From contig NC_022584.1 in assembly GCF_000479335.1 (NCBI RefSeq), positions 1,922,001-1,986,000 on the forward strand: a stretch of DNA of 64,000 bases, given 5' to 3'. Under the pieces are notes generated by a model, which saw nothing but the letters and a program-made list of their open reading frames with translations, made no database searches and was not told where the DNA came from. The stretch comes from Streptococcus ilei (GTDB taxonomy: Bacteria > Bacillota > Bacilli > Lactobacillales > Streptococcaceae). Position 1 is the stretch's first letter, and each line of letters opens with the position of its first letter. Below are positions 12,583-61,086 of this stretch, in pieces. Position numbers and translations under genes: made by a program.

Positions 12583-12757
12583 GAGGCTGGGACAAAAGTC
12601 CTAGCCTCTCAATTGTCTTTGGATTGTCGAGCAAGACGCAGTGGTTGAGTAGGGATCTACTAGGCTGATTTCATCAGCTTTTACAGTCCTACTCAACTGT
12701 GCGGAGGTGGGACGACGAAATCGAATCTAACGAGTGACCGATTTTTGTCCCACTCTC
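12583..12757 (+). repeat. Dispersed ~175-bp intergenic element, copy 2 (family A)
   Basis: Same orientation as copy 1. The end hairpin GAGGCTGGGAC/GTCCTAGCCTC is intact, and the closing arms GTGGGAC and GTCCCAC pair. The central stem has changed from TTGAGTGGGC to TTGAGTAGG and still pairs with CCTACTCAA. Part of the gene-free stretch 12572-13150. Confidence 0.92.
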
Positions 12758-12783
12758 TTTAGATTGGTATAACATTTTTTTTA

Positions 12784-12920
12784 AAACTTTCCTTAGGTGA
12801 GTACGGACGTCAGCGAACTTCTTCGAAGTTCCATGACTAATTATTGAGCCTAAGGTCTCAATAATTCCGTGTACCTAGACCTTAATTGATCTAGGCACTT
12901 TTCTCACAGCGGAAAGTTTT
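12784..12920 (-). ncRNA. Structured RNA element, copy A (family B)
   Basis: Read on the minus strand, the outer helix P1 is AAACTTTCC/GGAAAGTTT and the next helix is GTGAG/CTCAC. P2 is a long hairpin (GTGCCTAGA...TCTAGGTAC). A helix CGGA/TCCG encloses P3 (ATTATTGAG, loop ACCTTAGG, CTCAATAAT) and P4 (GAACTTC/GAAGTTC). The same fold, with different bases in most helices, occurs at 21934-22067 and 60837-60970. It runs opposite to the flanking genes. No ORF. I know of no certain family; the Rfam asd/SR914400 streptococcal motif is a possibility to test. Confidence 0.8.
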
Positions 12921-13001
12921 AGATCTGCCTAATTTCTCAAAAAAGATAATTTTTTAAAAAAATCATCTATCTATTTTATGGAAAAAGTTTGTCAATATTC
13001 T

Positions 13002-13029
13002 GAAATCCAGTTCTTTAGAACTGGATTTC
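13002..13029. terminator. Perfect hairpin between RNA copy A and nagA
   Basis: Inverted repeat GAAATCCAGTTCT (13002-13014) and its exact complement (13017-13029). There is no long T-run, so termination is uncertain. It sits at the upstream boundary of RNA copy A's transcription orientation and upstream of the nagA promoter. Confidence 0.5.
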
Positions 13030-20560: not shown

Positions 20561-20757
20561 AAGAAAGAAAGGCTTATGGCGTTTTTTTAGCGAGCTTGGG
20601 ACAGTGAAAGCCAAGTGGAACAAGATAGGCAAGTGGCGCTTTCTCTCAGTAGATAGCTGAGTACAGTAGAATAAAATGAAGTAATAAATTAGGGTGGAAC
20701 CGCGTTTCTGACGCCCCTAGGTCACTTGACTTAGGGGGAAAGACACGGTTCTTTTTG
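20561..20757 (+). promoter_or_regulatory. Glycine T-box leader (tRNA-Gly sensor) of glyQS
   Basis: The conserved T-box AGGGTGGAACCGCG is at 20691-20704. It is followed by the terminator/antiterminator region: an inner stem CCCCTAGG...CTTAGGGG inside an outer pairing of AACCG with CGGTT, then CTTTTT. A GGC triplet at 20618-20620 in the stem I region is the likely glycine specifier codon (inference). Uncharged tRNA-Gly should stabilise the antiterminator and turn on glyQS. Between this leader and glyQ lies the anomalous insert described below. Confidence 0.9.
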
Positions 20758-20765
20758 TATTCTAG

Positions 20766-20993
20766 GTCGCAATAAATTATAGAAAATGGAGTAAATAATG
20801 TCTAAAAAACTAACCTTTCACTGCGTCAGTGGCAGAGACCTCCTTTCAGTCGGGCTGTCCCACGCTCAGCACTAGGGTGCCTGAGCTAGACGCAGTACTA
20901 ACTCGTCTTGCCTCGTATGATCGACGAGGCAGACTCGTGTCGCAAGAAATTATAGAAAATGGAGTAAAACATGTCTAAAAAATTGACTTTTCA
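20766..20993 (+). repeat. Diverged 55-bp direct duplication of the glyQ start region around a 118-bp insert
   Basis: 20766-20820 and 20939-20993 both run from GTCGCAA through the SD and ATG into codon 7 of glyQ and match at 49 of 55 positions. Two of the codon changes are synonymous (CTA/TTG Leu, ACC/ACT Thr). The 118 bp between (20821-20938) contain CTGCGTC (20821-20827) complementary to GACGCAG further in, a GCTCAG/CTGAGC hairpin and a GCCTCGT/ACGAGGC hairpin. The stretch holds no gene of normal size. Confidence 0.85.
20798..20875 (+). pseudogene. Truncated glyQ start giving a 25-codon ORF
   Basis: The left duplicate keeps the SD (GGAG) and ATG and begins like glyQ (MSKKLTFH). It then runs into the insert and stops at TAG 20873-20875. 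It is probably a translatable relic upstream of the real glyQ. Any role as a leader peptide is speculation. Confidence 0.55.
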
Positions 20994-21888
20994 AGAGATT
21001 ATTTTGACTTTGCAACAATACTGGAATGACCAGGGTTGTATGCTCATGCAGGCTTATGATAATGAAAAGGGTGCGGGTACGATGAGTCCTTACACCTTCC
21101 TTCGCGCCATTGGTCCGGAACCATGGAATGCGGCTTATGTAGAGCCATCTCGTCGTCCAGCAGACGGTCGTTACGGGGAAAATCCAAACCGTCTTTACCA
21201 ACACCACCAATTCCAAGTGGTCATGAAACCATCACCATCAAACATTCAAGAACTTTACCTTGAGTCATTGGAAAAATTGGGTATCAATCCTTTAGAGCAT
21301 GATATTCGCTTCGTAGAAGATAACTGGGAAAATCCATCAACTGGTTCAGCTGGTCTTGGTTGGGAAGTTTGGCTGGATGGTATGGAAATCACTCAGTTCA
21401 CTTACTTCCAACAGGTCGGTGGCTTGGCAACAGGTCCTGTTACCGCTGAGGTCACTTATGGTTTGGAACGTTTGGCTTCTTACATCCAGGAAGTAGACTC
21501 AGTTTATGATATCGAGTGGGCTCCGGGTGTAAAATATGGAGAAATCTTCCTTCAACCAGAATATGAGCACTCAAAATACAGCTTTGAAGTTTCTGACCAA
21601 GATATGCTTCTTGAAAACTTCGAAAAATTTGAAAAAGAGGCCGGACGTGCTTTGGAATTGGGTCTCGTTCACCCAGCCTATGACTACGTTTTGAAATGTT
21701 CACATACCTTTAACTTACTTGATGCTCGTGGAGCGGTATCTGTTACAGAACGTGCCGGCTACATTGCCCGCATCCGTAACTTGGCCCGTGTCGTAGCTAA
21801 GACCTTCGTCGCAGAACGCAAGAAACTCGGTTACCCACTTCTCGACGAAGCCACACGCGCAAAACTCCTAGCAGAAGAGGAAGAATAA
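20971..21888 (+). CDS. glyQ: Glycyl-tRNA synthetase alpha subunit
   Basis: 305 residues; the catalytic subunit of the bacterial alpha2-beta2 enzyme. It has the family signature [22 protein letters not shown], then [14 protein letters not shown] and [19 protein letters not shown], together forming the class II active site. The start at ATG 20971 follows a GGAG SD; it is the second, intact copy of the duplicated start region. It pairs with glyS 206 bp downstream. The long gap between the two subunit genes is filled by structured RNA copy C. Confidence 0.97.
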
Positions 21889-21933
21889 AGAGAGTGTATT
21901 AATAGAATTGGATTATAGAATAATCCTACAGAA

Positions 21934-22067
21934 CCAGTTGCCGCAGTGATTGAGGTATCATTAGAGAAACTAATGATACCAGGCAAAATTGGAGACCTTA
22001 GGCTCCAATTTTAGCAATGAAACGACCTAGTCGGTTGCTTGCGTGCCAATCACATAAGGCAAACTGG
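21934..22067 (+). ncRNA. Structured RNA element, copy C (family B), between glyQ and glyS
   Basis: Same architecture as copies A and B but with extensively changed bases. P1 is CCAGTTGCC/GGCAAACTGG with one bulge, then GTGAT/ATCAC. P2 is GGTATCATTAG/CTAATGATACC. An enclosing helix GGCA/TGCC is followed by P3 AAATTGGAG, loop ACCTTAGG, CTCCAATTT, and P4 AACGAC/GTCGGTT. A GGATTA/TAATCC hairpin precedes P1. It lies inside the glyQS transcript on the coding strand. Confidence 0.75.
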
Positions 22068-42462: not shown

Positions 42463-42850
42463 TGAATCGTGCAATTTTTGGATAATCGCGTGAGAGCTTT
42501 CTCTCATGAGGAAAGTCCATGCTAGCACAGGCTGTGATGCCTGTAGTGTTTGTGCTAGGTGAATCCATAAGCCTAGGGACTTGATGTTCAAGTTACGGCG
42601 AGCGAACGGGCTAAGTCTTAGGATAAGTTCTACTAGCTCTGAAAGTGCCACAGTGACGTAGTTTTTAGGGAAACCTAAAAAGTGGAACGCGGTAAACCCC
42701 TCAAGCTAGCAACCCAAACTTTGGTCGGGGCATAGGATGCATGGAAACGAACATAGCATTCTGACTGGAAACAGTAGACAGATGATTATCGAAGGAAATG
42801 GTACCTAGTCATTTCTGGAACAAAACATGGCTTATAGAAAATTGCATATA
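42463..42850 (+). ncRNA. rnpB: RNase P RNA (class B)
   Basis: Catalytic RNA of RNase P; processes tRNA 5' ends. Outer helix P1 is formed by GCAATTTT (42471-42478) and AAAATTGC (42838-42845). The conserved elements are present: GAGGAAAGTCCATGCTAGCACAG-type CR-I near 42518 and AACCCAAACTTTGG plus the GGCTTATAGAAAATTGC 3' end. The place directly downstream of gpsB is normal in streptococci. Confidence 0.95.
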
Positions 42851-60782: not shown

Positions 60783-60810
60783 GAAAAAGAGGCTACATTG
60801 TAGCCTCTTT
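60783..60810. terminator. Terminator of cvfD, identical to the one at 61059-61086
   Basis: GAGGCTACA/TGTAGCCTC hairpin (60788-60806) with A-run and T-run. On the minus strand it also follows RNA copy B. Confidence 0.85.
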
Positions 60811-60836
60811 CAGATTAAAGACAAAGTAATTTTAGA

Positions 60837-60970
60837 AACTTTCCTTAGGTGAGTACGGACGTCAGCGAACCTCGTAGAAGTTCCATGACTAATTATTGAG
60901 CCTAAGGCCTCAATAATTCCGAGTACCTGAAACAACTGTGTTTCAGGCACTTTTCTCACAGCGGAAAGTT
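60837..60970 (-). ncRNA. Structured RNA element, copy B (family B)
   Basis: Minus-strand reading gives P1 AAACTTTCC/GGAAAGTTT and GTGAG/CTCAC. P2 is GTGCCTGAAAC/GTTTCAGGTAC, different from copy A but still paired. The enclosing helix is CGGA/TCCG. P3 ATTATTGAG, loop GCCTTAGG, CTCAATAAT; P4 GAAC/GTTC. A conserved upstream stretch (60971-61055) resembles that beside copy A. The copy is framed by two identical 28-bp terminators, so it could be its own transcription unit in the 60761-61086 gap. Confidence 0.8.
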
Positions 60971-61058
60971 TTTCATCTTCTTAAATGACTAAAAAATAAA
61001 AGTCATTTTTTGAAAATCATCCAGCTGTTTTATGTAAAACAATAGTTTATCTACATTC

Positions 61059-61086
61059 AAAAAGAGGCTACATTGTAGCCTCTTTC
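61059..61086. terminator. cysK terminator, second copy of the 28-bp hairpin
   Basis: Same 28 bases as 60783-60810. It follows the minus-strand cysK and precedes RNA copy B in its reading direction. Its last base abuts the cysK stop. Confidence 0.85.

Follow-up and report, generated by a model that had tools for sequence, protein, structure and literature searches.

Several small interspersed repeats have been described in streptococci. BOX, RUP and SPRITE of S. pneumoniae and the BOX-like RepSU1 of S. suis are short, foldable and non-autonomous, and the available text of the source has BOX, RUP and SPRITE almost entirely absent outside S. pneumoniae and S. mitis, with BOX-like elements in S. 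suis (PMC3049150). In the Bacillus cereus group, bcr1-bcr18 are MITE-like intergenic repeats found in UTRs and between operon genes, some of them with conserved folds (PMC3446304, PMC2267715). The IS1202 family consists of autonomous insertion sequences, mostly of 1.3-1.7 kb, which duplicate unusually long targets (27 bp for S. pneumoniae IS1202), and TGT...ACA ends are stated for its ISAjo2-type members (PMC10132070, PMC10045372). SSRC8, the founder of the Rfam family SSRC8_2 (RF02616), is a discrete sRNA of S. pyogenes which was detected by Northern blotting and had its ends mapped by circular RACE (PMC3675131). The available text of that paper gives partial BLAST matches in other streptococci and does not call SSRC8 a repeat or a mobile element.

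Here, we analysed a 64,000-nt stretch of the Streptococcus ilei genome (the window), which holds three copies, A, B and C, of a related folded element. We consider it probable that they belong to a module of about 135 nt with a conserved RNA fold, found in Streptococcus and a few other Lactobacillales, which exists in two states, one bare and fixed in place and the other borne by a mobile element. The core is that of SSRC8_2. At its gathering score of 72 only copy C is named (75.9 bits; copy A 49.7, copy B 42.8), and copies A and B share the core and not the flanks. The Rfam model describes a single sRNA and counts the flanking hairpins as its structure. The consensus has two similar outer hairpins, which in our own reading would be the duplicated terminator of one insertion, making SSRC8 a putative copy of the mobile class. 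At E <= 1, copy B matched only SSRC8_2, while copy A gave two other families and copy C eight rows, all well below the cut-offs. The asd/SR914400 motif had been suggested as a lead, but asd was absent from the Rfam matches of all three copies at this threshold.

The family differs from BOX, RUP and SPRITE in being genus-wide, branched and terminator-duplicating, a distinction that is drawn from descriptions and not from sequences (PMC3049150). The bcr repeats belong to another genus, and the available text on them does not state duplication of a whole terminator (PMC3446304, PMC2267715). Unlike IS1202-family members, the element carries no gene (PMC10132070, PMC10045372). Its duplication-delimited ends, GAATG... 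and ...CAATCTG, differ from the TGT...ACA of the ISAjo2-type members, the ends with which they were compared. Small mobile repeats with a structure have precedents in BOX, RUP and bcr1, whereas a genus-wide module with two states and whole-terminator duplication was not found described in the literature searched. Nor did we find the family described as a repeat or mobile element in the available text of sources that included PMC3675131, PMC3049150, PMC10132070, PMC10045372, PMC2267715, PMC3446304 and PMC6212727, with most subscription papers outside the search.

A shared fold in two genomic settings

All three elements called in the original prediction were present on the strands given, to within one or two bases, and their neighbours were those named: a Na/Pi symporter gene and nagA for copy A, glyQ (20971-21888) and glyS (start 22095) for copy B, and genes for a CvfD-type S1 protein and cysK for copy C. 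They do share one fold, as proposed, but they fall into two classes. In class i the fold stands alone at fixed intergenic sites, mostly inside operons. Class ii has the fold as the core of a longer element of about 250 bp, with about 87 extra nucleotides on the left and about 24 on the right, and includes many other copies of the own genome. Copy B is fixed and intercistronic, whereas copies A and C are of the mobile class. The features in the window are as follows.

12784..12920, minus strand: copy A, RNA core (P1, P1a, P2, P1b enclosing P3 and P4), class ii, 153.6 bits with covariance model R1
12921..13000, minus strand: copy A, left arm with end GAATATTGACAAAC, read from the sequence and aligned with other arms
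13002..13029, minus strand: copy A, left terminator-like hairpin, read from the sequence; a different repeat lies on the right side
21910..21926, plus strand: small hairpin GGATTAT...ATAATCC directly upstream of copy B, read from the sequence
21934..22067, plus strand: copy B, RNA core, class i, 102.0 bits with R1, without arms or duplicated hairpin
60784..60811, minus strand: copy C, right copy of the 28-nt cysK terminator hairpin, terminator-like by scan
60812..60835, minus strand: copy C, right arm with inverted-repeat end ...GTCTTTAATCT, from sequence and arm alignment
60836..60971, minus strand: copy C, RNA core, class ii, 153.3 bits with R1
60972..61058, minus strand: copy C, left arm with inverted-repeat end GAATGTAGATAAAC, from sequence and arm alignment
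61059..61086, minus strand: copy C, left copy of the duplicated 28-nt cysK terminator hairpin; genome G132, whose site is empty, has just one such hairpin

The core of about 135 nt consists of P1 (9 bp), an internal loop, P1a (5 bp), a hairpin P2 of variable sequence, and P1b (4 bp) enclosing P3 and P4. A UG/GC internal loop is present in most P4 hairpins, and P3 is capped by GAG A C..A G G CTC. The predicted architecture was adopted by all three copies, with folding energies of -59.7 (A), -57.2 (B) and -58.1 kcal/mol (C). None of 200 shuffled sequences folded as well (z -8.9, -7.6 and -7.6, respectively). The P3 loop CCTTAGG had been called invariant; it is not, as CTTA, AATA, TCTA, ATTA, TTA and AAGA are also found in the family. 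Complementarity between this loop and a junction CCTAAGG, seen in many own-genome copies, raised the possibility of a pseudoknot, which we rejected since the loops read at other sites do not keep it. Some other class i copies are, as judged by eye, also preceded by short hairpins like the one upstream of copy B.

Distribution of the family

The family is far larger than the three copies first described. In the own genome, blastn with copy A found 38 pieces, and model R1, built from 25 copies, gave 41 matches (E <= 0.1), including two or more on the opposite strand of a listed copy. The covariance-model search that the original prediction called for did recover further copies: at E <= 0.001, 131 of the 147 Streptococcus genomes (own included) had matches and 16 had none, with 1 to at least 22 matches per genome (22 candidates were scored in each). 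One partial model is all that Rfam has for this structured RNA, whose sites include the core operons grpE/dnaK and glyQ/glyS.

An order-wide search with model R2 matched 70 of 395 genomes. Sixty-six were of the same genus (own included), and the others were two genomes of one other genus (G268 and G462) and two weak matches from a third family. G268 had 64 matches and G462 133, some of them opposite-strand (at most 150 candidates were scored), and G157, a third genome of that genus, had none. From sequence, we infer that G268 and G462 are Granulicatella. A scan of named records covered at least 118 stretches, and the matches listed were nearly all from Streptococcus, with one from Granulicatella elegans and one from Lactococcus termiticola (both loci were viewed). 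Plasmids and phages gave no blastn matches, and viral contigs gave no pattern matches.

The matches in G268 and G462 include tandem arrays with a period of about 180 nt. At two G462 loci (L448 and L462), arrays of three to four units were joined by a conserved linker of about 42 nt (one of 98 nt); their long P1 was conserved, while P2, P3 and P4 differed and mostly still paired. The L. termiticola locus (L358, 7600-7730) was a variant without P2, with a P1a of about 25 bp. Three own-genome copies (L049, 125426-125611; L048, 274855-275040; L053, 354415-354601) carried about 50 extra nucleotides in the P3 loop, conserved in sequence, and form a subfamily. Identical sequence shared by L031, L032 and a third place was set aside as segmental duplication; it belongs to a repeated chromosomal stretch which, by its ORFs, is not an IS.

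Class i copies hold their place between operon genes

Among 208 aligned matches at 200 loci, the commonest contexts in the sense of the operon were purD/purE, grpE/dnaK, rmlC/rmlB, glyQ/glyS and yqeH/yhbY. Fourteen copies at infB/rbfA and seven at lplA/lpd lay against the operon sense. Site representatives were named by NCBIfam, with rmlC and the lpd piece below the cut-offs. All five sense sites are present in the own genome, copy B and L002 being assigned by clustering and L296, L297 and L298 from neighbouring start codons. The purD/purE site can carry two copies in a row (L209, L210, L212, L222). Relative to the downstream gene, conserved positions lie roughly 20-45 nt upstream of purE, glyS, dnaK, rmlB and yhbY.

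Compensatory changes support selection on the fold

In alignment A2 (102 rows, 97 distinct), 94.9% of the cells paired, against 69.4% after shuffling. The covariation that had been claimed proved real: 47 of the 49 pairs had changes in both partners, in 1142 cells where shuffles gave 319. The covariation score was 0.609, and sliding the partners by 1-3 columns reduced it to 0.065-0.121. Since A2 was fitted to the model, this slid control weighs more than the pairing percentage. One pair in P4 was unpaired in 52 of 92 rows. Alignments A2 and A3 together comprise 208 matches. Four of them are opposite-strand re-matches, two of which entered model R2 and the covariation count.

We also counted, on trees of orthologous sites, the double changes that keep pairing. 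They far outnumbered those of the slid control at purD/purE (65 vs 2.0), rmlC/rmlB (42 vs 2.5), glyQ/glyS (27 vs 1.5), grpE/dnaK (23 vs 1.5) and lplA/lpd (7 vs 0.8), and showed little or no excess at ROK (0), dnaJ (1), yqeH/yhbY (1) and infB/rbfA (1). Part of the large counts falls between sequence subtypes, which replacement could also explain. Eight of the nine site groups had at least one double change between sequences that were at least 80% identical. These results support selection on the fold.

Class ii copies are mobile and often flanked by a duplicated terminator

The ends of class ii elements are imperfect inverted repeats with a core of about GWAGACAAAS, from which several rows deviate. 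The left end reads about GA(A/G)NGTAGACAAAC and the reverse complement of the right end about CAGATTGAAGACAAAG. Directly outside the element lie two copies of one hairpin, which is different at each locus. At the copy C site the hairpin is that of the cysK terminator, 28 nt long. It occurs once in G132, which has no element there, and twice in G000 and G024, on either side of the element. The same was observed at the L012 site, where G132, G135 and G140 have a single hairpin of about 34 nt and no element, and G000 has two hairpins around the element, G024 matching G000 over the whole stretch.

The flanking duplication scored above every cross-control in 11 of 29 own-genome copies; this scoring found no duplicated hairpin and no matching right copy for copy A. 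In a survey of 243 distinct, placed, full-length copies of both classes, 64 exceeded the 99% cross-control score and 62 had a block at the same fixed offsets, where 2.4 would be expected from the score threshold alone. The 62 include orthologous rows, that is, one site in several species, and by eye represent about 40 sites. Their neighbours were convergent in 40 cases, both antisense in 13, both sense in 6 and otherwise arranged in 3. When both end motifs were present (69 copies), the duplication was found in 45 and not in 24. The block was 15-45 bp long (median 26-27, mostly 20-34), and its length followed that of the hairpin closely only with the hairpin measured inside the block (rho 0.88, 45 copies), the relation being weak in a wider fold (rho 0.35, p 0.007, 56 copies). 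Class i behaved differently, as none of 116 copies at seven sites, including the 12 copies aligned at glyQ/glyS, had such a duplication. One of five copies at the ROK site and one of seven at the dnaJ site did, and both are counted with class ii.

Class ii has several features of a MITE: it is short, non-coding and multi-copy, with terminal inverted repeats and a target duplication with two empty sites. Read from the compared genomes, its mobility is demonstrated, along with the two empty sites, the duplication and compensatory evolution in place. The suggestion that the RNA is mobile is best supported for copy C, with its empty site in a relative and its doubled terminator. For copy A, it is the arm by itself that supports mobility.

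Next to copy A in the window (about 12600-12765, minus strand) lies a member of a second repeat family, AGAGTGGGACA...GTCCCA...GAGGCTGGGAC. In G135 and G140 (L275, L273) this family occupies the terminator that carries copy C in the own genome, so that terminator targets are common to both families.

Proposed insertion at terminator hairpins

Class ii would be a non-autonomous element whose inverted-repeat ends are joined, by an enzyme acting in trans, to both edges of an intrinsic terminator hairpin. Joining at the hairpin edges would duplicate the whole hairpin. With cuts at the two edges, the duplication would be the hairpin itself and its length would vary with the hairpin. The element would then sit insulated between two terminators, and the insertion would be self-neutralising because both neighbouring genes keep theirs. 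The enzyme would be a transposase which recognises the ends and perhaps the extruded hairpin. We tentatively suggest that the target is a structure and not a sequence, that the enzyme may cut at the edges of the extruded hairpin, and that the module could then have been repeatedly kept in housekeeping operons and in tandem arrays of the Granulicatella type. Whole-terminator duplication suggests a low-cost insertion route for mobile DNA and predicts a hairpin-recognising enzyme, which could be tested on close relatives with empty and filled sites.

An IS1202-like partner was considered and, for the single IS family examined (NF033594), rejected. NF033594 matched in 4 of 26 genomes, 2 of them over the cut-off, and the ends of the IS differ. 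R1 had no match in five NF033594 loci, and the two copies inspected had no hairpin duplication. The left-end pattern (up to 3 mismatches) had nine matches in the own genome, each beside a listed or truncated copy, so that no autonomous copy was seen there. An autonomous parent with the same ends was accordingly not found with NF033594 in 26 genomes or with one end pattern in the own genome. One locus, L295, has kept both arms and lost the core.

Folded RNA or folded DNA

In streptococci (one tree, 197 rows), single changes away from Watson-Crick pairs produced G-U in 149 cases and A-C in 66. Summed over nine sites the ratio was 79 vs 43, with a slight difference at glyQ/glyS (3 vs 2) and none in favour of G-U at lplA/lpd (0 vs 2). 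An excess of G-U is expected if the named strand folds, but an ssDNA intermediate of the same strand could give the same result. The 29 Granulicatella-type copies had no G-U preference (12 G-U vs 23 A-C cells), and G-U pairs were rare, with 265 of 9305 scored cells overall and 12 of 1381 in Granulicatella-type copies. In the lplA and grpE/dnaK groups, certain P2 loops are exact inverted versions of one another. In view of these observations, we hold selection on the RNA to be likely and not proven.

The structure could instead be a property of the DNA, arising from hairpin-templated repair, gene conversion or a transposase that reads folded ssDNA, with an RNA that has no function. The scarcity of G-U pairs fits this, DNA-level hairpin repair could produce the P2 inversions without selection on RNA, and class ii copies occur in both orientations relative to their neighbours. 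Nevertheless, we regard this as rather unlikely. P1, with about 118 nt between its arms, also has compensatory changes, as do P1a, P1b and P4, and copies whose stems are unrelated share conserved unpaired motifs. The preference for G-U over A-C in streptococci also argues against it, though one DNA strand could do likewise, and the 116 class i copies without duplication remain folded.

Possible function of the RNA

If the folded RNA is what is selected, it may serve as a cis-acting element, placed between cistrons and after genes, for the processing or stability of the mRNA, an assignment which, from gene context, we make with some reserve. In operons, it would separate the fate of the two cistrons as a structure on which an RNase lands or by which it is blocked. 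Copies that hold their place across species adjoin specific operon genes (purD/purE, grpE/dnaK, glyQ/glyS), which fits a cis role. The antisense sites infB/rbfA and lplA/lpd are awkward for it. The idea that the RNA is not tied to specific genes holds for class ii and fails for class i, with its fixed sites next to specific genes.

The original prediction favoured a trans-acting RNA, that is, an sRNA family whose members are each made from the element and target other mRNAs. SSRC8 of S. pyogenes was indeed seen on Northern blots, with ends by circular RACE and a terminator (PMC3675131), and class ii copies are bounded by terminators. We find this improbable, as copies differ freely in their stems and in most of their loops, and the place-keeping class i copies sit inside operons. 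Furthermore, the promoter scan of copy C gave matches of only 9/12, none placed to start the element except from the end of cysK. A riboswitch or leader for the downstream gene, to which the conserved distances from the five sense genes and the conserved non-canonical loops would point, is highly improbable, as the genes downstream have no common pathway (purE, glyS, dnaK, rmlB, yhbY, infB/rbfA, lplA/lpd), there are antisense copies in operons and others between convergent genes, and no switch structure stood out in unsystematic inspection.

Other observations

In the copies inspected, an AUG in P4 is in frame with purE, glyS and yhbY. We considered it as a start codon and rejected this, as other sites differ in frame, some copies have no AUG and no ribosome site was seen. 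At window position 22017 and at L091 and L123, this AUG opens a frame running into glyS, purE and yhbY, and gene callers may therefore set these starts too far upstream.

Upstream of copy B, about 257 nt before glyQ, Rfam matches SpR19_sRNA at window positions 20579-20713 (plus strand). It contains a conserved GGGTGGAACCGCG, which resembles a T-box antiterminator and would be that of the glyQS operon, and the SpR19 "sRNA" is thus probably a T-box leader. Rfam also places RNase P RNA, class B, at window positions 42474-42839 (plus strand).
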